Origin: a virus
Strand: one strand, 5' to 3'
Length of the DNA: 64,000 bases
Virus record (IMG/VR): IMGVR_UViG_3300027709_000056
Span: 62,001-126,000 of that record
The notes under the pieces were generated by a model that saw only the letters and a list, made by a program, of their open reading frames with translations, did no database searches and was not told the DNA's origin. Each line of letters begins with the position of its first letter. Within the stretch, counting starts at the first letter, position 1. Shown one piece after another: positions 10,163-59,912 of the stretch. The translations under genes were made by a program, and so were the position numbers.

Positions 10163-12738
10163 TGGAAAAAGAATTAGATAAAATTAAAAGAATATTACCT
10201 ATCACTGATGCAGAAATTAGTCCTACTTTTTGTTTAGCCAAATGGCATCATACTACTATCTATCTAGCAACAGGTGAAACGCATAGTTGTTATCATCCTG
10301 CTCCACACAAAATACCTTTAGAAGAACTTAAAGACAATCCAAGTGCTTTACATAATACTATAGAAAAGAAAGACCAACGTAATAAAATGCTATGTGGCGA
10401 AAAGCCAGATGGTTGTAGTTATTGTTGGAAAATTGAAGCTATGGGTAAAGACTATGTAAGTGATAGACATATTAAAACAGCAAGTATATACACACCAGAA
10501 CGAGTTGCAGAAATAAAAGAGAAAGGAAAAGACTTTAATGTTAATCCTGAATACATAGAAATTAGTTTTTCAAATGAATGTAATTTTAAGTGTGGATATT
10601 GTCACCCTAAAGCTAGTAGTAGGTACTGGAAAGAGATAGAAGACCATGGTCCTTATAGTAAATCAAGTACACATAGACAAGATATTGATTGGTTTAAAGT
10701 TTATCAAAATGAAGAAGAGAATCCATATGTAAAAGCATGGTGGGAATGGTGGCCCGAAGTTAGTAAAACATTAAACATTTTGCGTATTACTGGTGGTGAA
10801 CCTTTAATGCACAAAAGTCTTTGGGACTTATTCGAAAAACTAGAAGCAGATCCAAAGCCACATATTCAAATTGAAGTTAATAGTAATATGGGTGTTAAGC
10901 ATTCGTTAGTTGAGAAACTAACAAAAATAGTATTAAGACTTAAAGCAAAAAATTGTATTAAAAGTTTTAAATTATACACAAGTATTGATACGTGGGGACC
11001 TAAAGCTGAATATATTCGTACAGGATTAGATTTAGAATTGTGGGAAAAGAACTTAGATTACTTTTTAAGGAATACTCCTTTCTCTGTTATTTTTATGATT
11101 ACATTTAATATCTTTAGTGTTACAAGTTTTAATTTATTATTAGAAAAAATATTAGAATGGCGTTCTAGGTATAATGGAATTGTAGCTAATCAAGTAAGAT
11201 GGCAAAAAGTACAATTTGATACGCCTCATTTAAAAGAACCTAGTATATATGATATGAATATATTACCTAAAGATGAGTTTATGCCATATATGGAAAAGAA
11301 CTTACAATCTATGATTGAACATCAAGATGATAAAGATAGGAATAAATTTAGTTCATTAGAAGTAGAAAAGTTTAGACGTGTAGTTGACTATATGCGTACA
11401 ACACATTACACACCAGTCAAACTTAAACAAGCTCATAAAGACTTTTATAATTGGTTTACAGAATTTGATAAAAGAAAAAGCACTAATTTAGTTAAAACGT
11501 TTCCTGAATTCGAAGTATTTTATGATGATTGTTTTATGGCAACCATGGAAGGTAAAACTCTTTGTATGCTTCCGTGGGTTCATATGTATGTAGGTGCAGA
11601 TGGAAACGTTTTACCTTGTTGTATAGGTGATTATAAACAGCCTTTAGGTAGTACGCATAAAAATAGCATAAAAGAGATTTGGAATAGTCCGCAATATAAA
11701 AAATTACGTCTGCAAATGCTTAATAACGAGAAACCATCAGCCTGTAATCAATGCTGGAAACACGAAGAAGCAGGAGGTGAAAGTAGTCGTTATAATAAAA
11801 ATAAAATGTTTAAAGAAGATTTACCGTTAATAGAAAAAACTAATAGTGATGGTAGTTTAGATGAAATGAAACTACGTTATATGGATGTACGTTGGAGTAA
11901 TATTTGTAATTTTAAATGTAGAACTTGTAGTGCGTCATTTAGTTCTACTTGGGCTCAAGAAGATAATGAATGCGGTGATAAGAAAGATGTCTTTATTTTT
12001 GCTGGCGGCAAAGATAACGATTCGTTATACGAACAATTTAAACCACATTTTAAAGATGTAAAAGTTTTTTATTTTGCTGGCGGTGAACCGTTAGTTACTG
12101 ATAAGCATTATGATATTTTAGAACACTTAATTGAAACTAATAATACAGATGTTTCATTACAATACAATTCAAATCTTAGTAATTTGTTTTATAAGAAAAA
12201 ATGTGTTACAGAATTATGGAATAAATTTTCTGATGTTAAAGTAGCGGCAAGTTTAGATAGTTGGGGAGACAGAGCTGAATATATTCGTGAAGGAACAGAA
12301 TGGCCTGTAATAATGGACAATTTAAATCGTGTAAAAAAAGATTCACCACACGTAAATATGACGTTCAATAGTGTTATAAGTGTTTTTAATATTTTAACAA
12401 TTACAGATTTTTTAACTTATATGGAAAATAATGGCTTTAAAACTAATCATGGTGTATTATATAATCTTGTTCATCCAGCACATTATCATATAAATGTTTT
12501 ACCTGCTAATTTAAAACAACTAGCATATCAAAAGATTGTAGCTCATGCACAAACAGTCCATAATAAAGGAATGTCTATGCAATTACAAGGTGTGTTAGAT
12601 TATATTAATGATTCAAAATTCGATCAAATGGCACAAATTAATTTTATATCAACTACACTACGTTATGATAAAATAAGAAATAGATCTTTTAGTAAAACAT
12701 TTCCTGAACTTAAAGATGCATTCGGTGATCGTTATTAG
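10162..12738 (+). CDS. Tandem double radical SAM protein (twitch/SPASM-like), 858 aa
   Basis: Two full units lie in one chain. Unit 1 has a Cys-rich prefix (C24, C43, C78, C85, C88) then the [4Fe-4S] motif C140-x3-C144-x2-C147 and GGEPLM at ~211. Unit 2 has a SPASM-like prefix (CMLPWVHMYVGADG, LPCCIGD, CNQCWKHEE, ~468-535), then C582-x3-C586-x2-C589 and AGGEPL. Radical SAM enzymes cleave S-adenosylmethionine to start radical chemistry; auxiliary clusters are expected from the prefixes. ATG at 10162 overlaps the upstream stop (TAATG) and is preferred to the TTG 12 bases earlier. Substrate unknown. Confidence 0.85.
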   Translation: MEKELDKIKRILPITDAEISPTFCLAKWHHTTIYLATGETHSCYHPAPHKIPLEELKDNPSALHNTIEKKDQRNKMLCGEKPDGCSYCWKIEAMGKDYVSDRHIKTASIYTPERVAEIKEKGKDFNVNPEYIEISFSNECNFKCGYCHPKASSRYWKEIEDHGPYSKSSTHRQDIDWFKVYQNEEENPYVKAWWEWWPEVSKTLNILRITGGEPLMHKSLWDLFEKLEADPKPHIQIEVNSNMGVKHSLVEKLTKIVLRLKAKNCIKSFKLYTSIDTWGPKAEYIRTGLDLELWEKNLDYFLRNTPFSVIFMITFNIFSVTSFNLLLEKILEWRSRYNGIVANQVRWQKVQFDTPHLKEPSIYDMNILPKDEFMPYMEKNLQSMIEHQDDKDRNKFSSLEVEKFRRVVDYMRTTHYTPVKLKQAHKDFYNWFTEFDKRKSTNLVKTFPEFEVFYDDCFMATMEGKTLCMLPWVHMYVGADGNVLPCCIGDYKQPLGSTHKNSIKEIWNSPQYKKLRLQMLNNEKPSACNQCWKHEEAGGESSRYNKNKMFKEDLPLIEKTNSDGSLDEMKLRYMDVRWSNICNFKCRTCSASFSSTWAQEDNECGDKKDVFIFAGGKDNDSLYEQFKPHFKDVKVFYFAGGEPLVTDKHYDILEHLIETNNTDVSLQYNSNLSNLFYKKKCVTELWNKFSDVKVAASLDSWGDRAEYIREGTEWPVIMDNLNRVKKDSPHVNMTFNSVISVFNILTITDFLTYMENNGFKTNHGVLYNLVHPAHYHINVLPANLKQLAYQKIVAHAQTVHNKGMSMQLQGVLDYINDSKFDQMAQINFISTTLRYDKIRNRSFSKTFPELKDAFGDRY

Positions 12739-17184: not shown

Positions 17185-17857
17185 TATAGTCTTTATAAGT
17201 TATGAAGAACCTAATGCAGATAAAGTTTACGAAGACTTAAAAGCTAGGTTTCCCATGGCTAAACGTGTTCATGGAGTAAAAGGAATACACCAGGCACATA
17301 TAGCCGCGGCAAAAAAGTGTTTTACAAAAATGTTTTGGGTAGTAGACGGAGATGCTCAGTTAAAAGAAGATTGGAAGTTTGATTATATTGCAAGTGAATG
17401 GGATCTTGATGCTGTTCATGTATGGCGTTGTCAGAATCCTATTAATTTTTTAGAATATGGACACGGTGGTGTAAAGTTATTGCCAAGGCAACTTACAATA
17501 GATATGGATGTTAGTCATCCTGATATGACAACTAGTATTAGTAATAAATTTTTTGCCCATCAAGAGATTAGTAATACTACAGCATTTAGTACAGATCCTT
17601 TTAATACGTGGAAAAGTGCATTCCGAGAATGTGTTAAATTATCAAGTAAACTTATTAGAGGACAAGTAGACGAAGAAACTGAAATGCGATTAATGGTGTG
17701 GTGTAATGAAGGTAAAGGAAAACCTAATGGCGACTATGCTATAATGGGTGCAAGAGCAGGTAAGAAGTACGGAGAAGAAAATATAGGTAATAAGGAAGCA
17801 CTATTTAAAATTAATGATTTTAAGTGGCTTAAAGAAATGTATGATAGAGAAAATTAA
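17177..17857 (+). CDS. Glycosyltransferase-like hypothetical protein, 226 aa
   Basis: A paralogue of the protein at 8961: IVFISYEEPNADKVYEDL, AKRVHGVKGIHQAH and the acidic WVVDGDAQL block align. It is shorter at the C-terminus. A GT-A-like nucleotide-sugar core is suspected from the D-G-D motif, but this is not a firm family assignment. Confidence 0.5.
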   Translation: MYDIVFISYEEPNADKVYEDLKARFPMAKRVHGVKGIHQAHIAAAKKCFTKMFWVVDGDAQLKEDWKFDYIASEWDLDAVHVWRCQNPINFLEYGHGGVKLLPRQLTIDMDVSHPDMTTSISNKFFAHQEISNTTAFSTDPFNTWKSAFRECVKLSSKLIRGQVDEETEMRLMVWCNEGKGKPNGDYAIMGARAGKKYGEENIGNKEALFKINDFKWLKEMYDREN

Positions 17858-18803
17858 AGAAAACATAACCAAAGTTGGATTAAAAACTTTAATTGAAAAT
17901 AAAGATCTTTTTACTGTTAGTTGGATTCTTGGACGATTTTGTAATTACGATTGTAGTTATTGTTGGCCGTATGCTAAAAGTAAAACTGTAGATCATAGAC
18001 CTCTTTTACAATATATCGGAACAATGGATGAAATTAAAAGTCAGGCTAGAGTAAATGGCTTTACAAAGTTTCATTTTAGTTTTAGTGGAGGCGAACCTAC
18101 AGCATATAAAGGTCTAATAGATTTACTTAAAGCATATAAAGAACCTGTTAGTAATTATCTTAGTGTGCATATGACTACTAATGCTAGTCCAGGATTTAAT
18201 TGGTGGAATAAATGGTTAACAGCAACAGACGGATTAGATCGTAAAAGTTTAACGGCAAGTTATCATGCAGAGTTTTCTAATGAAAAAGAGTTTGCAGGTA
18301 AACTTAAATTTTTACAGGAGCACGGAGTATTAGTTACAATTAATCAAGTTATGGTTCCAGATCGTTGGGATGAATACTATGGGAGAGCGTTACGTTTTAA
18401 AGATGAAGGATTGCACGTAACCCTTAAACCACAAAGTAATCCAACTGCAAGTTCTGTTGTAGAAGGATATACATTTGAGCAATGGGAAATATTACAAAAC
18501 GAAATGCAGATGGATATAAATCAGATGTTATTATTTGATACTGATGGAAAACAGTACGAATTAGATCAAGCAGAACGACTTAATGCTTATGAGTTTAATA
18601 AATTTAAAGGTTGGACTTGTAATGCTGGCTACCAAAGTTGTATTATCCGTGAACCAGGTGGCGAAATTAAAAGAGGCTATAGTTGTCATGACGAGCCGTT
18701 AGGTACTATTGATGAAGGATTTACTTTATTTAAAGAACCACGTGAGTGTATTACACCAACGTGTGTAAGTAGTGCAGATAGTAAGATACCAAAATGGAAA
18801 TAA
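17841..18803 (+). CDS. Radical SAM protein, 320 aa
   Basis: C34-x3-C38-x2-C41 in GRFCNYDCSYCWP is the [4Fe-4S]/SAM motif and SGGEPTAY the SAM amino-group motif. A C-terminal cysteine group (GWTCNAGY, YSCHDE, ECITPTC) suggests a SPASM-like auxiliary cluster domain. It belongs with the genes at 18794 and 24392, which have the same W-x-L-G-x-x-C-N-Y-D/K-C-x-Y-C start and GW/DWxC tail. An earlier ATG at 17814 lies deep in the upstream gene, so ATG at 17841 is chosen. Substrate unknown. Confidence 0.8.
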   Translation: MIEKIKENITKVGLKTLIENKDLFTVSWILGRFCNYDCSYCWPYAKSKTVDHRPLLQYIGTMDEIKSQARVNGFTKFHFSFSGGEPTAYKGLIDLLKAYKEPVSNYLSVHMTTNASPGFNWWNKWLTATDGLDRKSLTASYHAEFSNEKEFAGKLKFLQEHGVLVTINQVMVPDRWDEYYGRALRFKDEGLHVTLKPQSNPTASSVVEGYTFEQWEILQNEMQMDINQMLLFDTDGKQYELDQAERLNAYEFNKFKGWTCNAGYQSCIIREPGGEIKRGYSCHDEPLGTIDEGFTLFKEPRECITPTCVSSADSKIPKWK

Positions 18804-24414: not shown

Positions 24415-25285
24415 AAATATCTGCCGCACAAGTACACCAATTTCTATTACATATAACAGACTGTGTTGGATGTGCAAATGTTCCTTGATATATGTTTCCT
24501 AAACTACCACCTACTCTACAAGTAGCACGATGAACTTCTCCGTCCCAGTTTATCATAAGACTTTCTAAACCTATATTACATTTCCAATCAGTAAATTTAT
24601 TTCTATGCTGTTTAATAATATCATTAGCATGAACAATTTCTTCGTCATCAACCAAACAGTTAGCATCAGCAGTAGCATTAAGTTCTAATAACCAACCTAG
24701 ATCATCTTTTATATATTTGTTATCGTCAAATTTGTCATGATCTTCATCACCCCAGCGTATTCTTCGTACTGCATATTTTACGTTGTTAGTATCAAATAGC
24801 TCTACAGTTTTACGTACTGCATCCATATAATCATGATGGGCCATTACATTTACAAAGAAATTCTTCTTTCCTTGTTTTTTATATTCAAGTATTGTATCAA
24901 TGACTCTTTGATAATCTGCTTCAAAGTGTAGGCTAAACAATATGTGGTTCCAATATTCTTCATTTTCTAAATGCCAAGCGTGTGTTCTAGTTCCATTAGT
25001 CGTAAGACTTACCCATGATACGTTTTTAGCTTTTAAATAATGTAGAAGCTCTTCAAATTTAGGATGAACTGTTGGTTCCCCTCCTGTAAAAGTAATTCTT
25101 ACAGGTTTATCTGTTTCACAAATCTTATCTACAGTATCTTTTAGTATTTGTATGTCCGTGTGTTTGCTAAAATTATCGTGTATACTAGCTGGACAATAAG
25201 AGCAATCGTAATTACATCTTTTGCCAAGATTCCATTGTACGCTAAGACTATCTTGATGTCCCCATCTACTAGTAACCTTATACAT
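24392..25285 (-). CDS. Radical SAM protein, 297 aa
   Basis: C24-x3-C28-x2-C31 (GKRCNYDCSYCPAS), FTGGEPTVHP, and a tail with DWKCNIGLES, ATCRVGG and ICNRNWCTCA for an auxiliary cluster. It is the same subfamily as the pair at 17841 and 18794 but on the opposite strand. ATG at 25285 overlaps the upstream stop by eight bases and is preferred over the TTG nine bases earlier. Confidence 0.8.
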   Translation of the reverse strand: MYKVTSRWGHQDSLSVQWNLGKRCNYDCSYCPASIHDNFSKHTDIQILKDTVDKICETDKPVRITFTGGEPTVHPKFEELLHYLKAKNVSWVSLTTNGTRTHAWHLENEEYWNHILFSLHFEADYQRVIDTILEYKKQGKKNFFVNVMAHHDYMDAVRKTVELFDTNNVKYAVRRIRWGDEDHDKFDDNKYIKDDLGWLLELNATADANCLVDDEEIVHANDIIKQHRNKFTDWKCNIGLESLMINWDGEVHRATCRVGGSLGNIYQGTFAHPTQSVICNRNWCTCAADIFITKVKS

Positions 25286-26990
25286 ACTCTGCAAACTCCG
25301 GAGTTATAACTTCAAATGGTCCTTGATTACGACTTTTATCTAAGTTATGATTAAATTTAATACAGTCTTGCCATAACTCGTCGTGTAGATTATCAGCTTT
25401 TAAGAAGTTAATATTATCCTGAATTTGTGTCAGTGTAAAATGTTTCATGCGTTCGTCATCTTTTACAAGTTTATAATTAACCACTTGAGATTTTAATGCT
25501 TCTAGTTTATCAATTACTTCTATTTTTAGTTTAGGTGGTATTACTTGTGCCGATAAAGCTCGTGGATACTGTACGTGATGACTGTAAAAAATAATCCCCA
25601 TCGTTTCTAAGAAGTATTCAATTACCTTATCAATTTGCATTATGTTATTTGCCTGTACAGTAAATGCTCCACCAATTCTTCTAACTGTAGGAATAGTTTT
25701 CATAATTTTAACGTTTTCTTCAACATCACTAAACTTACCATTACCTCTAATGTAATCATATACATCATGCAATCCGTCAATTGAAACATTAACTGCAACA
25801 CTTTTAAATTTAGGCCAATAGTCATGTATACTACGACCACCTTTAATTCCTAATACAGTTCCATTTGTAGCATACTTAATTTCCATATTTTTTCCGTATG
25901 GTGCTAACAGATCTAAAATTTTATAATGTTGTGGATCCATTAACGGTTCGCCACCAGCAAATTCTACTCGTCTAAAGAATGGTAGTAATTTTTTAAAACT
26001 TGACCACCAATTCTCTGAATCGTCAAACACATCGATATATTGTCCGGGTGTTTTAACTAGTCCCTCAACTGCTGGAATAAGAAAGTTGTTTTCTTTTTTA
26101 TAAAACTCTGTAACTTGATCCCAGTCTTTCCATTGTGTACTATCTAATGGGTTACACATACGACATCTAAGATTACATAAATTGTTTAGTTTGATTTCCA
26201 TAGTAGGAAATTCAAACGGCATTGAATAATCGTCTTCTAGTGTGTCTAATGCATCAGGGTATAAGTTGATCCTTGCTTCAGGTATTACTCCTGCTATATG
26301 ACGCTGTCGTAAGCTCTGTACACCCTGATCTTCTTTTCTAAAGCAAGGCTCACATACATCAGGACGTTCATTATTCAATACTTGTCGGCGAACTTCTTTC
26401 ATTTTATCGCCATTCCATACTTCTTCTAAAGTTTCATCTTTAATATTACCAATAGGAAGACTTCTGCAACATACTTTAATTGCACCATCTTCTCTTGTTG
26501 CTAATCCTGTAAAAGGGTGCATACAAAATGTTTTACTTTGCATACAAAATCTTTTACTTACATCTATAAAAATTTCTCTTAGATAATCTAATGCTCCAAT
26601 AGTTTCATTATATCTTAAACCAAGATCTATACATAATATTTTAACGTTAGGACTAACAATAGCACTATGAACAACACTAGTATCTAAAATAAAAGGAAAA
26701 TTTATAACGTATTCTTTATCTTTTACAGTAAGTTTAAATTCTTCTTTAGTAAGAGGAACAATTAAACAGCTATCACGACCGTCATCAGTGTGTTCTGGAA
26801 CGTTATTATCTGTAAATTCTGTTACTATTGTTGAGGATAGATCTATATTACTTTTAAATAATGCAGGTTCTACTTTATATTCTTTTACTATTCCGTCAGC
26901 ATATTCAAAAATAGGGTCATTCTTAAATGATGCTAAGATTACTTCTAATGCATTATCTGTTATTGTAACATTATTAAAGGGCTGAAGCAT
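25278..26990 (-). CDS. Fusion: DSBH oxygenase-like domain + SPASM/twitch + radical SAM, 570 aa
   Basis: Residues 1-145 resemble a 2-oxoglutarate/Fe(II) double-stranded beta-helix: H67-T-D69 and H108 (VVHSA) are plausible iron ligands. Residues 156-225 are a Cys-rich prefix (FCMHPF, VCCRS, CEPCFRKED). The radical SAM domain has C272-x3-C276-x2-C279 and AGGEPLMD. The C-terminal ~200 residues match the 27784 protein in style. The combination suggests two successive oxidative or radical steps on one substrate, which is inference. It overlaps the PP-loop gene upstream by 17 bases. Confidence 0.75.
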   Translation of the reverse strand: MLQPFNNVTITDNALEVILASFKNDPIFEYADGIVKEYKVEPALFKSNIDLSSTIVTEFTDNNVPEHTDDGRDSCLIVPLTKEEFKLTVKDKEYVINFPFILDTSVVHSAIVSPNVKILCIDLGLRYNETIGALDYLREIFIDVSKRFCMQSKTFCMHPFTGLATREDGAIKVCCRSLPIGNIKDETLEEVWNGDKMKEVRRQVLNNERPDVCEPCFRKEDQGVQSLRQRHIAGVIPEARINLYPDALDTLEDDYSMPFEFPTMEIKLNNLCNLRCRMCNPLDSTQWKDWDQVTEFYKKENNFLIPAVEGLVKTPGQYIDVFDDSENWWSSFKKLLPFFRRVEFAGGEPLMDPQHYKILDLLAPYGKNMEIKYATNGTVLGIKGGRSIHDYWPKFKSVAVNVSIDGLHDVYDYIRGNGKFSDVEENVKIMKTIPTVRRIGGAFTVQANNIMQIDKVIEYFLETMGIIFYSHHVQYPRALSAQVIPPKLKIEVIDKLEALKSQVVNYKLVKDDERMKHFTLTQIQDNINFLKADNLHDELWQDCIKFNHNLDKSRNQGPFEVITPEFAEYV

Positions 26991-27783: not shown

Positions 27784-29199
27784 ATGACAAACCACAATTT
27801 CTGGAAAAATCACAATAACAAACAACTATCAGAATGGCAAAAGGACATTGAAGATAAATCAAATAGTCCTACTTTCTGTGTGTTACCTTGGATACACATG
27901 GCAACTAGACCAAATGGTGATATGCGATTGTGTTGTGGAGCGAATGCCAGCGGAGCAGGAGTAGACCCAACCATTGGTATAGTTAAAGATTCTACAGGAC
28001 AACACGCTAATTTTGGAAATCAAACACCAATGGAAGCGTGGAATAGTCAATATATGAAAGATGTAAGGAAAAATATGTTGGCTGGTAAAATATCTGCGAG
28101 TTGTCAAAAGTGTTTTCAAGAGGAAGCTAGAGGGATATCAAGCAAGAGAATATGGGAACATAATTACTGGCAAGACGAAAATATTAATATACAGGATTTA
28201 ATTAATGAGACTTTAGAAGACGGAACCGCTCCTGAAAGAATACATTATCTAGACCTAAGGCTAGGACATACTTGTAATTTAAAATGTATAATGTGTAGTC
28301 CGCATGATTCGAGTCAATGGGTTGGAGATTATTATAAGTTAAAAAAACTTACTACAGATAAAAATATACAAAGCCAATTACATTGGGTAAGAAAAGAGTT
28401 CAATAATCAATGGCATGAGAATCCTGAGTTTTGGGAAGAAATGTATAAGCAAATTCCTAACATTAAGCAAGTTTATTTTGCAGGGGGTGAGCCATTAATG
28501 ATTAGAGAACATAAAGAATTTATTAAGGAAATTATTAAGCAGGGTTACGAAAAGAATATTGTGTTGCGATATAATACAAATGGATTATTAATAGATGAAG
28601 AATTTATAAAATTATGGAGTCCCTTTAAAAGAGTACAAGTAGGTTTCAGTTTAGATGGAAACTTTCAAAGAAATCATTTCATTCGTTATCCTAGCGACTG
28701 GGAAATTGTTGATAATAATTTAGATTTACTTGATAATACGTCTGATAATATAGATGTAACTATTGCTACTTGTCTTAGCATTTTAAATATTAAACATCTT
28801 CCTGATTTTGTAAAGTGGAAAATTAATAAAAAATATAAAAAGATTAATACTAGAAAGAACAAGGAAGGATTAATTATAGGTGGAGGACTTGTTAATATCC
28901 ATTTAGTGTATATGCCTACATTCCTTGATATGAGAATATTACCTAAGGAACACAAAGAAGATGTAACAAAACGCTTTGAAGAACTTAAAACTTGGTTATG
29001 GGAAAACTATACACAAGATGATGCTTTTTGGAAATTAAATCCTTATGGTTGGAGAAGATACGAAGGTGTATTAGATTTTATGAATAGTGAAGATAAAACT
29101 GCGATGCTTCCTAGCTTTAAAGATTATATTAATAAGATGGATATAATTAGAGAAACTAATTTTAAAGAAGTTTTTCCTGAACTTGCTGATTTAGTCTAG
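27784..29199 (+). CDS. Radical SAM protein with SPASM-like prefix, 471 aa
   Basis: The Cys-rich prefix (FCVLPWIHMATRPNG, RLCCGA, SCQKCFQEE, residues 31-114) matches the middle of the double radical SAM protein at 10162. C164-x3-C168-x2-C171 and AGGEPLMI follow. The SSQW motif just after the cluster also occurs as STQW in 25278 and SSTW in 10162 unit 2, which marks one subfamily. Its own late promoter and its opposite strand suggest independent acquisition. Substrate unknown. Confidence 0.8.
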   Translation: MTNHNFWKNHNNKQLSEWQKDIEDKSNSPTFCVLPWIHMATRPNGDMRLCCGANASGAGVDPTIGIVKDSTGQHANFGNQTPMEAWNSQYMKDVRKNMLAGKISASCQKCFQEEARGISSKRIWEHNYWQDENINIQDLINETLEDGTAPERIHYLDLRLGHTCNLKCIMCSPHDSSQWVGDYYKLKKLTTDKNIQSQLHWVRKEFNNQWHENPEFWEEMYKQIPNIKQVYFAGGEPLMIREHKEFIKEIIKQGYEKNIVLRYNTNGLLIDEEFIKLWSPFKRVQVGFSLDGNFQRNHFIRYPSDWEIVDNNLDLLDNTSDNIDVTIATCLSILNIKHLPDFVKWKINKKYKKINTRKNKEGLIIGGGLVNIHLVYMPTFLDMRILPKEHKEDVTKRFEELKTWLWENYTQDDAFWKLNPYGWRRYEGVLDFMNSEDKTAMLPSFKDYINKMDIIRETNFKEVFPELADLV

Positions 29200-36680: not shown

Positions 36681-38054
36681 TTAAGTGTGTAAGTCTACCC
36701 AAGCTACGCCTGTACGTCCTTGGAATTTATTATCGGTAGTATTATAAATTATCATACCAGCCGCCGGAGTTAATGCATCTCTTTCAACAGTTGTTAGGTT
36801 ACCAAATTTTGTATAACCGCTTACTATTGCATCACCATTTACATCGAGGTTAGCACTTGCTTCTTCTTGGTTAACAGCCATTCGACCCCTGGAATCAAAA
36901 TTAAATTTCTTAATTGCATCACCATCAACACCAGACGCTACAAGAATATGAATCTTTTGATCAAGTCTATCAACTGCAATAGTTCCGTTTGGATCAACCT
37001 GTGCAAGTATAGTACTTATTTGTCTATTATTATTTCCTGGACTATCTTGTCCTGAAAAAGCATAACCGCCTAGAATGTCACCAGCAACGAGCTGTGTTGG
37101 AGTTTCAATAGATCCTTTATAACCTTCTAACTCCATTCTTCGAAGATCAGGTAATCCAGTTTTAACATCTGCAACATTTGAAGGTGTTGCTGTTAGTGTA
37201 GCAACAATCAGCGGTGCTTTATCTAAGCTACCTGGCCAAATTGTAAGTCCACCAAAATCGCCTGCCGCCGGTCTAGCATCAAGCATCGTATGTCCACTAA
37301 GGTTAGTAGCACCAAAAACGGCTCCACTATTCATTACCATAGTGTTGTTAATAGCATCTATAACTATTGATGAATCGTCATTAAAGACTGATCCTAAAAC
37401 ATCACCTGTTAAACTTCCAGTAATTTGATTTGCTTGTATATTACCTGCAAACGTTCCATCATTTGCTGTAACATTTTTTGTTGTAGCATTATAAAAATTT
37501 GAATTGTCAGCGGCATCTACATCACCTGTAAGTTTACCACTAGCATTTAAGGCTCCAGTTGCTTTATTAAGTAAGACAGTACTATCGTCTCCAACAACAT
37601 TAGCATTAATAACTGCGGCACTAATATCGTCGTTAACGTGTACAGTTTTAAACCAACCTTGATTAAATCTTGATGTTCCAGCACCAATGTTTCTTGCACC
37701 ATCTACGTCTGGAATAATATGACTTTCTACTTTCGCAGTAAAGGCAACAGTATCAGTTGAAGCGTCACCTATATTAAGGTTTCCACCAAGTGTAAGATTA
37801 CCATCTGCTGTAATGTTACCTGTTATAGTAATGTTACCAGTAGTATTAATGTTACCAGTACCTACTAAATCAAAGTTATTTAAATCAACATTGGAACCAT
37901 AAGCCGTTCCAGCTGTGTCAACTGGGTTCCCACCAACAGTTAAACCATCGCCTATATATAGTCTTTTGGTGTCTGTAGTGTAGACTAATTCACCATCTGC
38001 TGGTGTAATTAACCCTCGTTCGCTGTCTGTTCCTCTGCGTAATCTTAAAGCCAT
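36681..38054 (-). CDS. Fibre/receptor-binding protein with Mtd-type N-terminal domain, 457 aa
   Basis: MALRLRRGTDSERGLITPADGE and LVYTTDTKRLYIGDG form the short N-terminal domain found in Bordetella phage major tropism determinant and many fibre proteins. The middle is a repeat-rich shaft (NITITGNITADGNLTLGGNLNIGD). The C-terminus (ERDALTPAAGMIIYNTTDNKFQGRTG) resembles a host-binding tip repeat. It is the only fibre-like gene on the - strand in this window. AGGAGTG ribosome site upstream. Confidence 0.75.
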   Translation of the reverse strand: MALRLRRGTDSERGLITPADGELVYTTDTKRLYIGDGLTVGGNPVDTAGTAYGSNVDLNNFDLVGTGNINTTGNITITGNITADGNLTLGGNLNIGDASTDTVAFTAKVESHIIPDVDGARNIGAGTSRFNQGWFKTVHVNDDISAAVINANVVGDDSTVLLNKATGALNASGKLTGDVDAADNSNFYNATTKNVTANDGTFAGNIQANQITGSLTGDVLGSVFNDDSSIVIDAINNTMVMNSGAVFGATNLSGHTMLDARPAAGDFGGLTIWPGSLDKAPLIVATLTATPSNVADVKTGLPDLRRMELEGYKGSIETPTQLVAGDILGGYAFSGQDSPGNNNRQISTILAQVDPNGTIAVDRLDQKIHILVASGVDGDAIKKFNFDSRGRMAVNQEEASANLDVNGDAIVSGYTKFGNLTTVERDALTPAAGMIIYNTTDNKFQGRTGVAWVDLHT

Positions 38055-39755: not shown

Positions 39756-39921
39756 CAGACAGATCTGCTAATGGATCTTTTATTTCTTTAATGTTAGTAA
39801 CTAGGTTAGGCGCAAATCGTTGTTCTATATCTGTTCCTGTATCGCTATAAACAAAGGATTTAATAGTCCTAACTTTAGATGGATGCATATATTTTAGTTT
39901 AAAACTCCAAGCCTTTGTCAT
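39715..39921 (-). CDS. Small conserved phage protein, 68 aa
   Basis: A short protein beginning MTKAWSFKLKYMHPSKVRTIKSFVYSD. Linked by an ATGA overlap to the VWA protein gene upstream. Function unknown. Confidence 0.5.
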   Translation of the reverse strand: MTKAWSFKLKYMHPSKVRTIKSFVYSDTGTDIEQRFAPNLVTNIKEIKDPLADLSGEGWAKKETTKYI

Positions 39922-41210
39922 TTTGAGTCTTCGTAGTGTGCCGTAACTCCGAATGGTGCCTTTAAGTTCTTGTCATGATGTCCGTGAATGATGAATACTG
40001 TTTCACAGTAGTTTTCATCACCCCAGCTATCCCAAGGATAACCATCTGTAAACATTATGAAACGTTTTGGATTAATACCGTTCTCTTCCATATATTTCCA
40101 ATTCGCCATAAAGTCTGTTCCGCCACCGCCTTTAATTTCGTAGTGTTCAAGTTCACTACCATTATCAGCAGTAAAGTCTGCTTCGTTATATACTTTAGTA
40201 TCAAAGCACCATAGCTTAATTCTGTAGTCCTGGTACTCTTGCATAATGCCTTGTACTTCACTTAGAAACACTTTAGCTTGATCGTTTCCAATTGATCCAC
40301 TCATATCAATTCCAATACAAATATCAATAGTTGTATCAAAAGTCATACCTGGAAGAATTGCTCCCGTGTGCCATCCTTTACGTGAAGGACGTTGGAAAGA
40401 ATAATCATTTTTAATAGTGCTTTGGATCTGTTGACGTAACAGTTCACGCCAGTTCATTTTAGGTTCAGTAAGTTCTTTAATAAAACGATCAACTTCACCA
40501 GGAACATTACCAGCACCTGCGGCCTGTGCCGCCCCTAGCATACTTTCCTTAACTTCATCACGGATTTTACGAAGTTCGTCTTTAGAATATTTTGGCGGTC
40601 CTTTTTTGTCTTTCTTCTTGTTCTTTTTATCTTTAGAATTAGATGGGCTTTTATTTTCGTTATCTTTATCCCAATCAATATGATCATCAAGCAACTCGCC
40701 TAATTGCTCAAGTTCTTCTTCATCATATTTCTTATAAAGCTCATCGTAAACTTTCTCACTAGTCCAACCTTCATATTTGAAGTCTTGGAAAATTTGTATA
40801 TCTTTTGGTTTTGTTCCGATTGAATCACGCACCAAAGTATTATTAACAATATAATCTGATGCAATATTATGAACCTGTGGATCTCTATCTTCACGTCTTG
40901 TCATATGATCAAAAACGCAATGAAGAATTTCGTGGGCTATAACAAACTCAATTTCTTTGTTTGTCATTTTAGCGAAAAACTGTGAATTATAAAATAAGTG
41001 TCTACCGTCAGTTGCGGCAGTTCCACACCAGTCATCACATTCTTTTATAATAAGCCTTGTAGCCATATTACCAAAAAATGGGTGGCGTAAAAGTAATCCA
41101 ACTCGTGCTACGATAATTTTGTCCAAAACTTCAGCTCGAAGATCTTTCAATTCTTCTGGTGAAAGTTTAACTTCTTCTGTTTTTGGTTTGTCTAAAGTAA
41201 TTGTAGTCAT
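39918..41210 (-). CDS. VWA domain protein with HExxH metallopeptidase-like N-terminus, 430 aa
   Basis: FVIAHEILHCVFDH (about residues 91-104) is a zinc HExxH motif. A Lys-rich linker (NKKKDKKGPPKYSKDE) leads to the VWA domain with the MIDAS motif D-M-S-G-S in GIDMSGSIGND. VWA proteins of this type work as partners of MoxR-family AAA+ proteins, and the MoxR-like gene is the next gene upstream. The start at 41210 has AGGA nine bases before it; the ATG nine bases earlier would lie directly on the ribosome site. Transcribed from a consensus sigma70 promoter. Confidence 0.8.
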   Translation of the reverse strand: MTTITLDKPKTEEVKLSPEELKDLRAEVLDKIIVARVGLLLRHPFFGNMATRLIIKECDDWCGTAATDGRHLFYNSQFFAKMTNKEIEFVIAHEILHCVFDHMTRREDRDPQVHNIASDYIVNNTLVRDSIGTKPKDIQIFQDFKYEGWTSEKVYDELYKKYDEEELEQLGELLDDHIDWDKDNENKSPSNSKDKKNKKKDKKGPPKYSKDELRKIRDEVKESMLGAAQAAGAGNVPGEVDRFIKELTEPKMNWRELLRQQIQSTIKNDYSFQRPSRKGWHTGAILPGMTFDTTIDICIGIDMSGSIGNDQAKVFLSEVQGIMQEYQDYRIKLWCFDTKVYNEADFTADNGSELEHYEIKGGGGTDFMANWKYMEENGINPKRFIMFTDGYPWDSWGDENYCETVFIIHGHHDKNLKAPFGVTAHYEDSK

Positions 41211-41243
41211 CTGTGCCATTCCTCAATTTCTTATTATATGTAT

Positions 41244-41272
41244 ATTATACTATATTTAATGTTCATTGTCAA
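41244..41272 (-). promoter_or_regulatory. Consensus sigma70 promoter
   Basis: On the - strand, TTGACA (41267-41272), a 17-base spacer and TATAAT (41244-41249): a perfect match to the bacterial housekeeping consensus, reading into the VWA gene. Confidence 0.85.
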
Positions 41273-41275
41273 CCG

Positions 41276-41309
41276 AAAAATGGAAGGGGATTAATTAAAA
41301 TCCCCCTCC
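41276..41309 (-). terminator. Rho-independent terminator
   Basis: On the - strand, GGAGGGGGATT pairs with AATCCCCTTCC (one G-T pair) around a six-base AT loop, followed by ATTTTT. It lies just after the MoxR-like gene and just before the VWA promoter, so the two partner genes are separately transcribed. Confidence 0.8.
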
Positions 41310-41321
41310 AAATGACGCCTG

Positions 41322-42416
41322 TTAGGCCGACGCCTCGCCTTGTGCGGCTTTAATATACTTGCCAAAACGTTCATGGAACTCATCAAAACATTCAACTTCG
41401 TCTGGATCGATTGGAAGTTGATATTGTGTAAGAGCTAATTTGATACCCATAACTACTAGTTCAGTATCAAAGTTGTCCATTGCGAACCTTAAGAAGTTAT
41501 TAACTTTGTCATCAAACTTCTTATCGTTCTTATCACAAGCTTCTTTAAGCTCGTAGCATAAAGAGACTGTTAAGGAATACATGGCACTGATTTCTTTAGT
41601 CTCTAGCTTCTTAACCTTCGCAGTAAGAATGTCGCTTGGGTTAGGAAGATCTGCGGCTACTTTTCTGTGAGCCATGAATTTTACAGCAAGTCCTTCGCCT
41701 ACTGCACCACTAACTAAATCTGTAGTGGTGTTCTCATCGTCGTCATCTTCCAAAAGTTCGGAAACAAACGACCAAGAACGGGGTGTAGCAAATGAACGAC
41801 TCGGTGATTTTGGATCAAAATCATATAAGTCCTTCTTGCTAAATGTTAGGTAACCAACTACATCCTGGTGTTGGTTGTTTTTTACTGCCCACTCAAACCA
41901 GTCATCAAAATCAACTTTAAGTTCTAAGTGAACAAAACGGTTAGCCAACGGAGCAGGCATTCTATATGTAACGCCTTTATCAGCTTCTCTATTACCCGCC
42001 GCAACGATCAAAACGTTGTCAGGTAATACATAAGTGCCAACCCTACGATTTAGGATTAACTGATAAGCCGCCGCCTGTACTGCTGGTGCCGCCGAATTCA
42101 TTTCATCCAAAAACACAATAATATATTTGTGCTTTTTAGCCATCTTAGCATCTGGCAATTCGCTTGGGGGTGCCCAAACCATTGTACCTTGCTTTGAATC
42201 GAAATAAGGGATACCTTTAATGTCTGTTGGTTCCCATAAGCTCAAACGTATATCGATAACGTGAGCTTCCATATTATCGCCGATCTGTTTAACGATGTCT
42301 GATTTTCCAATACCTGGGGGACCCCAGATAAAGATTGGACGTTTCTTTTTAAATGCTCTGACAACACTTGCCTTTGCATTATTTGGACTTACTTGCCTTA
42401 CTGCTAGATTTTCCAT
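41322..42416 (-). CDS. MoxR-family AAA+ ATPase, 364 aa
   Basis: Walker A G32-P-P-G-I-G-K38-S (FIWGPPGIGKSD); Walker B FLDEMNSAAPAVQAAAYQL with D104-E105; sensor-like VAAGNREAD. MoxR ATPases are chaperone-like remodelling enzymes that work with VWA partners to mature metal enzymes or complexes. Such a pair recurs in marine T4-like phages, with no known substrate. Followed by a strong terminator. Confidence 0.85.
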   Translation of the reverse strand: MENLAVRQVSPNNAKASVVRAFKKKRPIFIWGPPGIGKSDIVKQIGDNMEAHVIDIRLSLWEPTDIKGIPYFDSKQGTMVWAPPSELPDAKMAKKHKYIIVFLDEMNSAAPAVQAAAYQLILNRRVGTYVLPDNVLIVAAGNREADKGVTYRMPAPLANRFVHLELKVDFDDWFEWAVKNNQHQDVVGYLTFSKKDLYDFDPKSPSRSFATPRSWSFVSELLEDDDDENTTTDLVSGAVGEGLAVKFMAHRKVAADLPNPSDILTAKVKKLETKEISAMYSLTVSLCYELKEACDKNDKKFDDKVNNFLRFAMDNFDTELVVMGIKLALTQYQLPIDPDEVECFDEFHERFGKYIKAAQGEASA

Positions 42417-53495: not shown

Positions 53496-53686
53496 GCATC
53501 ATTGTTTTCTAATTGTGCCAATTCGTCTTTGACCTTAAGTTTCATTTTTTTGTGTCTCTTTATTATTGCCTTTGTTTCCCAATTTCTATTGCCTTTTTCA
53601 TCTCGTTCTTCTTCCATTTGTTCAACTTTTCTATGTAAGTAGTCGAACTCTTTTTTAAGTCGTACCGCTTTTTTACTTTTGCTCAT
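53492..53686 (-). CDS. Small charged coiled-coil-like protein, 64 aa
   Basis: Dense in Lys/Glu (LHRKVEQMEEERDEKGNR, RHKKMKLKVKDELAQLE), with a heptad-like pattern. It starts inside the end of dpdA by 14 bases. Function unknown. Confidence 0.5.
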   Translation of the reverse strand: MSKSKKAVRLKKEFDYLHRKVEQMEEERDEKGNRNWETKAIIKRHKKMKLKVKDELAQLENNDA

Positions 53687-55214
53687 ACTCCAGTTCCTCT
53701 AGTTTGTGCTCTTGTTCTTCAGTGAACTCGTCATCTTCAACTAGTGGCGTTGTACCATCGGATACATCAAATAGTGAATTAAACTGAGCACTTGCATTCA
53801 CAGTTCGTTTGCCTGTCATACCTCTAGTTCCTATCACTGAAATCCAAAATTTATTAAATTCTTCTATTACTGCCATTGCAGTATCTTTACTATCTGTTGC
53901 AAATATAGCCTCTATAATATCTCTAAAGTAAACTCTATCAAAACGTTCATCAACTAGCATTTTTGGAATAACATTATTATCATATTGTCTGTTTGCTTCT
54001 TGTACTGCATTAATATGATGCCAAACATTATGTCCCATTTGAATTGCATAACTAAATGAATCCCAACTAGTTCTACCTTCTTTACCTATCTTATTTAGGT
54101 CACCTGGCTTATAACAACATACATCTGAAACTTTTAATCCATCCGTTATAGGTGAATTTTCAAAGTTTTTAAATACACCATCTTGTAATACTGCATCTTT
54201 AAATGAACGAGTATCTGTAGCATACTTTTTATCATCTATACTCGGTACCATTCGGTACACCCATTTAGATCTATCTTCTGTTTCTGTTTGAATATAAACT
54301 TGTCCATTTGCAGTTGCTAAGAAAGGACTTGCACAATCAAATGTAACTGTAAAGTTTGGATTATGATATTTACGAACTGCTCGTTGTACGTCAGTTAGTA
54401 AGGCCGCCCATTCAAGTTTAGATGTACCTAAGAAGTGCATGAAGTCATGTTTACCTGTTTCTAATAGTCCATCAAAACGTAATGCTACAAGTCTTTTTAA
54501 TACTAGGTGTATGTCACACATATTTTGACCACCCATTGACCAACCTTTAAAATGATCGCTATATTTTTTAGGATCACAATAGTCTTTCATTTGCTGATAC
54601 CAATCTTCTGCATCAGCATGGTTTTCGCCTTGTAAAACATTTAAGAATTTACAATTACCATTTTGTTCTTTCATAAAGTAATCGTTATTAATGCGTGTAG
54701 CATTAACGGCATCTTGATAATTGTCAATTCCTGTTGCTTTTGCTCCTGCTGGAGAACGTGATACCCAAGCTGGAATATCTAAAATCATTCCATAGTCCAT
54801 ATACTCATCCATCCAAGCAAGAACTTGTTCACGTTTCTTTTTAGCTTTAGGACAGTTAGGATCTTTCCAATCGCCTTCCCAAACACCTTTACCAATTTGG
54901 AAACCACCTGAGTCACCAAGTAGCCAACTATTCTTACGATCCCTGTTTCGAATCATATCTTCTTTAGGTGAATGTTTGTTTATATCTAGTTCGGCGTGTC
55001 CCGCACTATATAGACTCCAATGATATTTGAATAAACCCTTTTGTGGGTTTAACCAGTTCATACTTTCTACATCGTTCGGGAAGTTTGATGGTACTCTAGT
55101 TTTTTCAACATACTCTGCGTGTCGTTGCTTTCCTATATAAGTTGCAAAGAAGCCACTTATTGCTGGAAGGAATATTGCATAATCCTTTTGTGCAGTTGTT
55201 AAGTCTGTATTCAT
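53673..55214 (-). CDS. dpdA: DpdA-like DNA 7-deazaguanine transglycosylase (TGT family), 513 aa
   Basis: D101-S-G-G-F-Q106 is the TGT catalytic Asp block. FLNVLQGENHADAEDWY, FKGWSMGGQ and TFDCASP (D293, candidate nucleophile) follow in family order. Length (~500) fits phage DpdA, which exchanges guanine in DNA for a 7-deazaguanine. tRNA TGT is an alternative but is shorter (~375) and carries a CxCx2Cx25H zinc site that I do not see here. Same operon as FTR1 and clamp genes. Confidence 0.8.
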   Translation of the reverse strand: MNTDLTTAQKDYAIFLPAISGFFATYIGKQRHAEYVEKTRVPSNFPNDVESMNWLNPQKGLFKYHWSLYSAGHAELDINKHSPKEDMIRNRDRKNSWLLGDSGGFQIGKGVWEGDWKDPNCPKAKKKREQVLAWMDEYMDYGMILDIPAWVSRSPAGAKATGIDNYQDAVNATRINNDYFMKEQNGNCKFLNVLQGENHADAEDWYQQMKDYCDPKKYSDHFKGWSMGGQNMCDIHLVLKRLVALRFDGLLETGKHDFMHFLGTSKLEWAALLTDVQRAVRKYHNPNFTVTFDCASPFLATANGQVYIQTETEDRSKWVYRMVPSIDDKKYATDTRSFKDAVLQDGVFKNFENSPITDGLKVSDVCCYKPGDLNKIGKEGRTSWDSFSYAIQMGHNVWHHINAVQEANRQYDNNVIPKMLVDERFDRVYFRDIIEAIFATDSKDTAMAVIEEFNKFWISVIGTRGMTGKRTVNASAQFNSLFDVSDGTTPLVEDDEFTEEQEHKLEELEYEQK

Positions 55215-55217
55215 TTG

Positions 55218-55760
55218 TTACCCCAAATGTTCAATTGCCTCATAGCCAAACCATAAAGCAAATATAAGAAACGTATATCTTGTAATTGAAAATAGTGTTT
55301 GTGTTTTAATGTGTTTTCTTATTAACGGAAAAGCACCAAATACTAATGCAATGGCAAGTCCTGCCCCTAACCATCCATCGCTTGTATTGTTTACTGATTG
55401 AAACATAAAAATAAATATTTCCATAAATTCTCTAGCAAAAATAAAGAATATTGTAAACATTCCTACAAGCAAACCTGTTTGTCCACTTTTAATATAGCTG
55501 ACGTGTTGTTTAATATGCGCCGCCATATTCTTACTATTAAAGAACAAATAAAACATTAATAAAGAAAGTAATGCATACATACCTACTTCGTATGCCTCTA
55601 ATGCTTCACCTAAAAAGATTCCAGATGCTAATCCTGTTAGTAATCCTATAAAAGCTGGTACATATACTTTCCAATTTAAACCTATAGCTGTAGAAACCAT
55701 GACAGTTAAAAACATCATTTCTAAAGCCTCACGCCCTACATAAACAAAACTTGCTAACAT
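55218..55760 (-). CDS. FTR1-type iron permease-like membrane protein, 180 aa
   Basis: Two motifs exactly 100 residues apart: R10-E-A-L-E14 and R110-E-F-M-E114, matching the REGLE/REXXE Fe(III) ligand motifs of FTR1/EfeU permeases. About six hydrophobic segments are visible. It is shorter than typical FTR1 (~270+), with no fused periplasmic domain. It would import iron, probably with an oxidase in the host. One-base overlap with the clamp gene, so it is not a contaminant. Confidence 0.75.
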   Translation of the reverse strand: MLASFVYVGREALEMMFLTVMVSTAIGLNWKVYVPAFIGLLTGLASGIFLGEALEAYEVGMYALLSLLMFYLFFNSKNMAAHIKQHVSYIKSGQTGLLVGMFTIFFIFAREFMEIFIFMFQSVNNTSDGWLGAGLAIALVFGAFPLIRKHIKTQTLFSITRYTFLIFALWFGYEAIEHLG

Positions 55761-56494
55761 TATTTGCTCTGTGCAGGTAAAATATAATTGTAATCAGTTA
55801 GTCCTGAATCTACACTGATTTGCATAGCCCCTTGATCTGAAATCTTCATAGTTAGTTTTCCATCAAGACTTAATATAGCTTGGACTTGTGCTACAGGCCA
55901 ACTCCACGAATGTTTTAATTCGGTTTCAATTCCTGTATGTTGAAATACAAATGATCCTGCGTGTGTTGAATGATCACCAAAGTAAAATACTAATGTATTG
56001 TTTTCTGTTTTAACTGTAAAAACAGTTTCTTCGGCGTGTGCGGCACTTTGTAATTTCATTCTGTTAATTGATGCCATTGTTGGTTCAAATTCAACTTCCC
56101 AAGTTGCACCTTTAAATTTAACAGACTTTAATTTTTCATTAATAATTTCGCTATTCATAAAACGATAATCATTTTGGAAATCTCCTGCTTCATTTTCAAA
56201 GTGAATATGTGTTGGAATAGTTACTCCGTTTCTATCTGCTTTTTCTACAGATAGTTTTGCATTTTTCTGATATTCAGGATTTTTTAAATGCAAAGCTAAC
56301 TTATCTAAGTTTGGCATACCAAATGTTTCTTTAAATTCTGAAACAGGATTTTTTGCTGTTGCTGTAAGAATTACAGAACGATCCTCAGCCATACTCTCAA
56401 TAGTAGTACTTTGATCGTCACCTGTAACCTTAACTAGATTTAAAAAGCCTAGCGAATGTGTATGGGCAACGATATCTTGTAAGATGTCTTTCAT
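55760..56494 (-). CDS. 45: Probable sliding clamp (T4 gp45-like), 244 aa
   Basis: The length is close to T4 gp45 (228). Alternating strands (FKETFGMPNLDKLALHL, FMNSEIINEKLKSVKF, NTLVFYFGDHSTHAGSF) follow the clamp pattern, and the tail (SGLTDYNYILPAQSK) ends in the usual beta edge. The identity is weak, so this rests on architecture plus position upstream of the replication operon. Transcribed from a sigma70 promoter. Confidence 0.55.
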   Translation of the reverse strand: MKDILQDIVAHTHSLGFLNLVKVTGDDQSTTIESMAEDRSVILTATAKNPVSEFKETFGMPNLDKLALHLKNPEYQKNAKLSVEKADRNGVTIPTHIHFENEAGDFQNDYRFMNSEIINEKLKSVKFKGATWEVEFEPTMASINRMKLQSAAHAEETVFTVKTENNTLVFYFGDHSTHAGSFVFQHTGIETELKHSWSWPVAQVQAILSLDGKLTMKISDQGAMQISVDSGLTDYNYILPAQSK

Positions 56495-57313: not shown

Positions 57314-58250
57314 CTAATTTCGAAATGTCAAATGAGTTTTCAATATGACCTTTAGCTTTCCAATAGTCGCCGGCTCTTTCCCATTCAGCTTTAAAGTCAT
57401 TTACTACATCTAGATCTGATACGTCTTGACAATTTTTTTTATTAAGTAAACTTGTTTTAATATAAAGTTCTATTTGTGTATGTTTTAATAGCTTTATTAC
57501 ACCAAGTCTACGTTTATGTATACATTCGCCCCAATCTAATCCAGTAATAAGCCACTTACCATAATTTAATCCTTTATCATTAAATTCTTCTAACGTTGTT
57601 ATATGGTGTGTGTGTTCAACTGTGTTTATACTGTATAGTATAGGATGTAACGGTCTATCTTCACCGTGTCCGTCATATGTTGCAAAAACAATATGCGTTG
57701 GTGGACGTTTTGTAAAAAATTGTTGTAAACGATTATAAAGATTTACAGAGTTTGGACTATGCTTATTGGTCCAGTCGCCACCCCAACAATCTATTACAAT
57801 TGCACCATCAAATGCAATAGTTATACTTTTATTAAGAACATTGTTAGTAAGAACTCTTTGTCTTAAATCTGTACTAGAAAATCTATGATTACGTTTATTA
57901 TAATAATGTTCTATGCCTAAACGTTCGCCTACTTCTTTACCACTAAAGTTTTTACCTTCATATTCAACACCTAGTATACGTACATGAATACCATTCCTTA
58001 AATTAAGGATATCATCTATATCCCTTTCTTTAACATAAGGAATAATTTCATCAACATAACGTACACCTTTTAATTGCGTGTATCGTTCAACTATAGTTTG
58101 AACAGGTTTATTTTTTTCTGGTCTATCAATTGTTGGATCAACTTGTATTCCAGCAATAAGATAATCACATTGTTCTTTTGCTTCACGCAACATAGCAATA
58201 TGTCCTGCGTGTAGTAAATCAAATGTACTAAATGTTATACCAACTCTCAT
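57294..58250 (-). CDS. Cytidylyltransferase-like protein with unknown C-terminal domain, 318 aa
   Basis: ITFSTFDLLHAGHIAMLREAK (H-A-G-H) and HRFSSTDLRQRV are the nucleotidyltransferase signatures of the glycerol-3-phosphate cytidylyltransferase (TagD) type, over residues 1-135. Residues ~140-318 are another domain beginning ITIAFDGAIVIDCWGGDW, which I do not recognise and which may bind a nucleotide. It would activate a sugar or alditol phosphate as CDP-ester. Coupled to purC by ATGA. Confidence 0.7.
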   Translation of the reverse strand: MRVGITFSTFDLLHAGHIAMLREAKEQCDYLIAGIQVDPTIDRPEKNKPVQTIVERYTQLKGVRYVDEIIPYVKERDIDDILNLRNGIHVRILGVEYEGKNFSGKEVGERLGIEHYYNKRNHRFSSTDLRQRVLTNNVLNKSITIAFDGAIVIDCWGGDWTNKHSPNSVNLYNRLQQFFTKRPPTHIVFATYDGHGEDRPLHPILYSINTVEHTHHITTLEEFNDKGLNYGKWLITGLDWGECIHKRRLGVIKLLKHTQIELYIKTSLLNKKNCQDVSDLDVVNDFKAEWERAGDYWKAKGHIENSFDISKLDEEYGA

Positions 58251-59128
58251 TCTATAAACCTATTTGTTAGTTCTGTTACTAATTCATATTTGTTTGCAAC
58301 ATTAGATAAATCTTCGCCATCTCTAAAAGATTGTTTGTCTAATTGTTTGTTAGGATCACCATCTGGCCAAATACGCCAGCTATCATTGTCAACAACATCA
58401 GATAGTACTAAAAGATTGTCTTTAGTTCTCCATCCTAATTCAAATTTTATATCTACAAGATGTATATCAGAAATATTTCTCCAACTTCTTTCTATAGCTT
58501 CAAAGGCAGGAAGAACAATTTTAAAAATTGCACTATCTAATTCTCGATCGTTAAGTAAAATTCCAGTATTCATTAGAGGTTGACCCTGAATAGGATCTTT
58601 TGCAGAATACAATTCCCATCCGTTTCCAATTTTAATATATGGATCTGTATATACACCGTCGGCCCATTTACCTTCTACTAAATATTTTTCTCTAGCTTCA
58701 TTTTCATCCATCTGCATAGGTTCATGTACATTAGGTGGCATTACAACAGAATGTTTATGAAATATTTCCCATACAGGTTCTGCAAAGTTCCAAGGGCCAC
58801 CTGGTCTCGTTGCAAATCCTGGGTTGCGTTTTAAGTAACTGCCATAAGCATAACGTCTAACAACAAACTCAAGTGGCAACATATCGCATTCGTTGTGTAG
58901 CATTGTACTTGGGTCTGTTTGTTTAATAAAAGATGTAGGCACATCATTTTCTTCAAGCATTTTAAATACATTTGATGCTTGTTTTGTTTTTTGTATTCCT
59001 ATATCAGTAAGTTCTTCTTTTTGAGCGGCATCACCGCCTGTCAAAAAATCTTTTGCTATCATATTAACTGTAAAGGGTTCATCACCCTTTTGAATTAATT
59101 TTGTTTTACCTTCAATTAAGGTAGTCAT
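58247..59128 (-). CDS. purC: SAICAR synthetase PurC, 293 aa
   Basis: LIEGKTKLIQKG (start block), FVVRRYAYGSYLKRNPGF and IHLVDIKFELGW are the PurC signatures for ATP and CAIR binding. It makes SAICAR from CAIR and aspartate in purine synthesis, boosting nucleotide supply for replication. Overlaps the HemB-like gene by 17 bases. Confidence 0.85.
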   Translation of the reverse strand: MTTLIEGKTKLIQKGDEPFTVNMIAKDFLTGGDAAQKEELTDIGIQKTKQASNVFKMLEENDVPTSFIKQTDPSTMLHNECDMLPLEFVVRRYAYGSYLKRNPGFATRPGGPWNFAEPVWEIFHKHSVVMPPNVHEPMQMDENEAREKYLVEGKWADGVYTDPYIKIGNGWELYSAKDPIQGQPLMNTGILLNDRELDSAIFKIVLPAFEAIERSWRNISDIHLVDIKFELGWRTKDNLLVLSDVVDNDSWRIWPDGDPNKQLDKQSFRDGEDLSNVANKYELVTELTNRFIE

Positions 59129-59912
59129 TTAATTTTCTCGCTCCATAAGATATCATATAATCCGCACCAGCTCTTTTAAACACATGGTACGTTTCTACTA
59201 ATTGTTCAGGTGTATCTATACCTAAGTATTCACCTGAGGTTTGGAATGCACCACAGGCTTTTCCTGTGATTTGTTTTATAGGTTCTATTAAATCTATACT
59301 AGTCATACCTGGTTTAACCATTAATTCATTTGCACCATCATCTGCATATTTTGTTGAACGTATTATAGCACCAGTTCTATCAGAAACATCTAATTGATAA
59401 GGTCTTACTATACCTTTTTTTATTCCCATTACATTACGCCAACCACTATAAAAACTAGATCTAAATTTTGTACTATAACTCATTACAGGAATATCTGGGT
59501 TTTTATTTTTAATATTTTTAACAGTATTTGGTTGACAATCACTAGGAGCAATTGTGGCCCCAGAAGCATTGTATATTTCTACTGCTTGTTCTAATAATAG
59601 TTCGTCTGTTTTATCTTGATCACCTGTAACGCAACAATGTCCATCATATGTATATGCACATAAGCATATATCTACATTTAGTTTAATATCAAGTTTAGCA
59701 AGAGCTCGTGCGGTCTGTGATACTAAAACAAAGTTATCTTCTTCCTTTAATTTATAATCTGGAATATAAAATAGTAAAAATTCTTTAACTCCTAAATCAA
59801 TATCTTTCTTAACTCGTTCAATAGTATCTATATGACCAAAAACTTTGTTATCTTCACCTAGTCCTGACTCATGTGTAGTAGGACTAGAAAATAGTGTTTG
59901 TATTACTCTCAT
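59112..59912 (-). CDS. hemB: HemB-like porphobilinogen synthase (delta-aminolevulinate dehydratase), 266 aa
   Basis: DICLCAYTYDGHCC (81-94) has the zinc cysteines C83, C85 and C93; K149 (SYSTKF) and K200 (LMVKPGM) match the two catalytic Schiff-base lysines; FQTSGEY and KRAGADYMISYG complete the fold. The family joins two 5-aminolevulinate molecules to porphobilinogen for haem, chlorophyll and B12. It is ~55 residues shorter than usual, lacking the N-terminal arm that controls oligomer state. Encoded between dexA and purC with overlaps, so it is truly phage-borne. Substrate is inferred from family. Confidence 0.8.
   Translation of the reverse strand: MRVIQTLFSSPTTHESGLGEDNKVFGHIDTIERVKKDIDLGVKEFLLFYIPDYKLKEEDNFVLVSQTARALAKLDIKLNVDICLCAYTYDGHCCVTGDQDKTDELLLEQAVEIYNASGATIAPSDCQPNTVKNIKNKNPDIPVMSYSTKFRSSFYSGWRNVMGIKKGIVRPYQLDVSDRTGAIIRSTKYADDGANELMVKPGMTSIDLIEPIKQITGKACGAFQTSGEYLGIDTPEQLVETYHVFKRAGADYMISYGARKLNDYLN

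Follow-up and report, generated by a model that had tools for sequence, protein, structure and literature searches.

The open reading frame at positions 55218..55760 (minus strand) of the window, the 64-kb stretch of DNA analysed here from inside a 199.8-kb virus record, encodes an FTR1/EfeU-like six-helix membrane protein of 180 amino acids. It is rather likely a compact, strongly diverged FTR1/EfeU relative that keeps helices 1-6 and imports iron as a cargo gene, a reading in which we infer the iron substrate, the direction of transport and the benefit to the phage. Relatives are encoded on 11 viral contigs, with identities to the window protein of 69-98% across the eight viral relatives aligned.

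The translation agrees with the earlier note in placing two RExxE motifs in this protein: REALE at residues 10-14 in helix 1 (55719..55733, minus strand), in register with REGLE of EfeU, and REFME at residues 110-114 in helix 4 (55419..55433, minus strand). They are its sole RExxE motifs, and two such motifs appear in 1 of 20,000 residue shuffles of the 180-amino-acid protein. A dual REXXE is described as the mark of iron(III) permeases (PMC4460010). The second motif is present in all eight aligned relatives and the first in all seven that cover that stretch. At its start, helix 3 carries the acidic residues E55-E58 (55587..55598, minus strand), which align with the QELFE acidic patch of EfeU. 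When the phage family is aligned with 53 cellular EfeU proteins, R110, E111, E114 and E55 are invariant, and R10, E11, E14 and E58 are conserved at 90% or more.

Relationship to the FTR1/EfeU family

The assignment to an FTR1-like family is upheld by matches in both search directions and by a profile-profile alignment that beats motif-keeping shuffles, with weak similarity outside the motifs. Among family models, NCBIfam EfeU (NF041756) matches the window protein at an E-value of 3.3e-5, its score of 23.6 bits standing against a curated cut-off of 255, and the best of the eight viral relatives reaches 1.2e-7; TIGR00145 matches six of eight viral family members. Pfam FTR1 (PF03239) gives no match to the window protein at E-values up to 10, and all NCBIfam scores fall far under the curated cut-offs that define FTR1/EfeU membership. 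The profile check called for in the earlier note therefore returned matches to NCBIfam EfeU and TIGR00145 below cut-off and none to Pfam FTR1, with some FTR1 similarity left outside the two motifs.

A profile of the phage family, searched against 12,191 open reading frames of the gathered loci, places E. coli EfeU directly behind the family itself (E 0.0017). Against 398 Pseudomonadota genomes (200 first), its top two matches are the FTR1 proteins L260 and L261, with per-genome E-values of 0.0014 and 0.0016 and alignments spanning residue 1 to about 130. These E-values are not strong alone; their weight is that both top matches are FTR1 proteins, L260 also matching PF03239 above its cut-off and L261 carrying the same REVLEM and REGSE motifs as L260. 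In the reverse direction, profiles of 100 cellular FTR1 proteins rank the phage family next behind EfeU. Alignment of the phage family with an FTR1 profile by hhalign gives a probability of 96.4% and a score of 65, with phage residues 1-168 collinear with profile positions 4-195 and both RExxE motifs in register. Identity to EfeU proteins is approximately 20-31% across the aligned part, and a search of genome contigs turned up no cellular protein closely homologous to the phage family.

Column shuffles that keep the motifs reach a maximum hhalign score of 48.8 (mean 26.7, n = 300), and 300 full local shuffles reach a maximum of 31.7. Masking the motifs lowers the hhalign score from 65 to 37.3, with the register still correct, and the hmmsearch scores from 14-22 to 1-8 bits. 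These controls support a homology to FTR1/EfeU, judged from sequence, that is real but distant, since most of the profile signal is concentrated in and around the RExxE motifs. The weak signal beyond the motifs would also be expected if the protein were unrelated to FTR1, a six-helix membrane protein such as those of the TauE/LysE kind, and carried the RExxE pair by chance, and TauE does reach 0.003 in two of the eight relatives. TauE/SafE (PF01925) itself gives no match to the window protein at E-values up to 10, and its best relative, at 0.0029, stays below the cut-off. EfeU matches far better (1e-7), motif spacing and helix positions correspond to those of FTR1, none of the 300 motif-keeping shuffles reaches the true score, and the masked score exceeds all 300 full local shuffles; a chance origin of the motif pair is thus very improbable.

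FTR1 proteins of the REVLEM and EfeU types were not found in 2.9 million viral contigs by pattern-limited searches, and a profile-limited search gave no PHROG match to EfeU. MT835771, the sole phage-collection record matching EfeU, was set aside as it looks like a GC-rich bacterial contig. Weak matches in Certrevirus and Pectobacterium phages were also rejected, being short, and the one that was translated lacks the RExxE pair. In the accessible literature, mostly excluding subscription journals, no description of a phage FTR1 was found.

Membrane topology and structure models

Hydropathy, AlphaFold2 (AF2) helices and loop charges agree with the earlier description of a compact six-span protein with its motifs in membrane helices. 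The helices lie at approximately residues 2-26, 33-49, 54-75, 95-123, 129-147 and 153-177, and both RExxE motifs fall inside helices 1 and 4, at moderate model confidence. Neither of the two outcomes that the earlier note set as refuting was thus obtained, weak as the similarity beyond the motifs is. Loops 3 and 5 carry three lysine or arginine residues each and loops 2 and 4 none, a distribution that, by the positive-inside rule, fits six spans with both termini outside. With 53 EfeU rows added to the alignment, AF2 returns exactly six helices (pLDDT 64, pTM 0.51), compared with a pLDDT of 40 on the phage family alone. The protein ends at EAIEH of helix 6, aligned near HEAG of EfeU; helix 7 is missing because the protein stops about where helix 6 of EfeU ends, leaving six helices where FTR1/EfeU proteins are defined by seven.

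A Foldseek search with the AF2 model returned nothing at E-values below 0.3. The best Z-score from VIA-align is 7.8, and ZnT zinc transporters reach 7.1 over 142 residues, values of little meaning for a helical bundle. Searching by sequence with EfeU returned no solved structure for the FTR1 fold.

Taken with the profile evidence, the gene appears to be a divergent, compact viral FTR1 variant and probably an iron permease. Because its scores lie below the curated cut-offs and it lacks the seventh helix, it is not filed as a member of EfeU or Pfam FTR1; it is classed as a divergent relative from viruses, one that probably functions as they do.

A variable slot between the clamp and dpdA-like genes

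The upstream neighbour is a sliding-clamp-like gene (55760..56494, minus strand; PHROG 12062), whose homologues are annotated as PCNA or beta clamp in two other phage records. It overlaps the FTR1-like gene, as had been claimed, by the single base shared between its stop codon and the following start (TAATG). A consensus promoter had also been said to drive the FTR1-like gene. A sigma-70-like promoter does exist (TTGACT-17-TATAAT, 11 of 12 positions; 56546-56518, minus strand), but it lies upstream of the clamp gene, about 760 bp from the FTR1-like gene, and belongs to the clamp transcription unit rather than to the FTR1-like gene alone. Relatives retain both hexamers, and among these are three that lack the FTR1-like gene. 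Since the promoter precedes the clamp gene and its hexamers persist where the slot is empty, the FTR1-like gene is most readily taken to belong to the clamp transcription unit, with which it would be co-transcribed, and a promoter of its own is unneeded.

The downstream neighbour (53673..55214, minus strand) is termed dpdA-like by its DSGGFQ motif only. Its protein carries GDSGGFQIGKG, which resembles the TGT signature, and it gives no Pfam, NCBIfam or PHROG match. Homologues of the dpdA-like gene are present in PA5oct-type phages, and these jumbo phages have the two neighbours, as homologues, arranged in the same order and separated by an 86-amino-acid open reading frame. In PA5oct this small frame is gp169 (L294:2153-2413), and the clamp homologue, gp170, bears a structural-protein annotation along with a note on mass spectrometry.

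In this phage group the junction serves as a slot for variable cargo. Across 162 loci with both neighbours, several of them sharing contigs, the gap from clamp to dpdA-like gene is in many cases 2-86 bp, an empty slot. Other occupants include a Na+/H+ exchanger (2.8e-26), PsiE (4.5e-21), DUF2061, a methyltransferase and small membrane proteins; examples of slot content are the junction at 55214-55760 and loci L139, L173 (a PsiE copy), L159, L067, L134 and L137. PsiE-like genes, of a phosphate-starvation family, occur commonly in viral contigs: relatives of the L173 copy are encoded on 148 stretches, with loci L295-L374 among them. In a tree of the clamp and dpdA-like proteins, where sampling is biased toward close relatives, the FTR1-like gene occurs at two far-apart places, one of them nested among relatives with an empty slot.

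Such turnover raises the question of whether the gene is neutral passing cargo, a hitch-hiker that plays no part in infection and sits at a junction prone to recombination. The slot is indeed empty in the very close relatives L019 and L020, whose clamp and dpdA-like proteins are 96% and 91% identical to those of the window. However, pairwise dN/dS values of 0.10-0.33 (near-identical pairs left out) mark the FTR1-like gene as one held under purifying selection, and a very distant lineage, L006-L008, carries the same gene in the same slot; neutral carriage is therefore improbable. A broader proposal is advanced tentatively and at less than even expectation: that a minimal, partner-independent six-helix FTR1 iron channel evolved in a family of large phages, and that the junction is a docking place for host-membrane nutrient and ion proteins (FTR1-like for iron, PsiE for phosphate starvation, an exchanger for sodium and protons) expressed with replication genes from the clamp promoter.

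Possible iron transport and comparison with known systems

As first stated, the claim of actual iron uptake is not supported. The curated thresholds are missed, the seventh helix is absent, and no genes for EfeO (M75), EfeB/DyP, P19-like or cupredoxin partner proteins were found in the 199.8-kb record, for which completeness is not stated. The window encodes four radical SAM proteins (10150-12738, 17814-18803, 25278-26990 and 27784-29199), three of them with SPASM domains, a 2OG-Fe(II) oxygenase, and a HemB-like (porphobilinogen synthase) protein of 266 amino acids (59112-59912) that matches ALAD at 2e-42, is shorter than the 317-327-position models and scores under the NCBI cut-offs. The presence of the radical SAM and HemB-like genes thus stands, but the argument from iron demand is circumstantial: the distant carriers L006-L008 have the FTR1-like gene yet lack one of HemB type close to the clamp. 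An association of HemB-like and FTR1-like genes was considered and set aside as inseparable from clade.

Several other features were seen in the window. A SAICAR-synthetase-like gene (58247-59128) adjoins the HemB-like gene; at 39918-42416 a MoxR-type AAA ATPase stands beside a DUF2201 metallopeptidase/VWA protein, a pair that looks cellular; and the protein at 36681-38054 contains a major tropism determinant N-terminal domain (Mtd_N, 4e-10).

FTR1-type proteins are reported to pass iron with a partner, and the yeast permease requires a partner oxidase (PMC9174327). With the seventh helix missing and none of the searched partner proteins found in the record, and with assorted membrane proteins of unlike function among the other slot occupants, the protein could be a true FTR1 homologue that no longer transports iron, handling another divalent metal or acting as a small membrane effector, for example through iron binding or tuning of the host membrane during infection. 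This alternative is unlikely, though it deserves more weight than neutral carriage: both RExxE motifs and the acidic residues of helix 3 are kept while the rest drifts to approximately 70% identity, a pattern suggesting that the iron site still binds metal. On sequence grounds, an iron importer aiding infection appears the likeliest function.

As an iron importer, the protein would most likely be produced from the clamp promoter along with the sliding clamp and would insert into the inner membrane of the host, N-terminus outward. Iron, probably drawn from the periplasm either through a host partner or unaided, would move inward past the glutamates that line its path, those of REALE in helix 1, REFME in helix 4 and E55/E58 in helix 3, and its import may support the iron-dependent enzymes of the infected cell. 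The gene itself would behave as cargo, gained and lost in the slot between the clamp and dpdA-like genes. If iron is moved, the phage equips the host membrane with an iron channel of its own and offers a direct test case for virus-iron coupling. A six-helix version of 180 amino acids would help to establish how small the core of the FTR1 fold can be, and the slot beside the clamp would serve as a simple map of the host membrane functions that these phages have chosen for alteration.

Among known systems, an 'iron transporter' of bacterial origin is reported for algal-virus contigs in one study (PMC11633385); it concerns eukaryotic viruses of an algal pond and is compared by description only. 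Yeast Ftr1p, also set beside the phage protein by description only, shares the dual REXXE iron-permeation motifs (PMC4460010, PMC8065604) and differs in its seven helices and its dependence on the Fet3p oxidase (PMC9174327). The REVLEM-type FTR1 proteins of Pseudomonadota, L260 and L261, are the best cellular profile matches, and their REVLEM resembles REALEM of the phage protein; they differ in being about 270 amino acids long, with a C-terminal part absent from the phage protein, and in having REGSE as second motif. The L260 gene adjoins a cytochrome-c-peroxidase-like gene, by reading of its open reading frames, whereas none is seen near the phage gene. EfeU/YcdN of E. coli has 276 amino acids, seven helices (PMC9174327) and a place in the efeUOB operon, compared with 180 amino acids, six helices and a lone cargo gene in the phage; in laboratory E. 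coli K-12, efeU is a pseudogene. The two proteins are alike in their start point, with REGLE of EfeU at residue 10 as is REALE of the phage protein, in a second RExxE in helix 4, in an acidic patch where helix 3 begins and in the order of helices 1-6.
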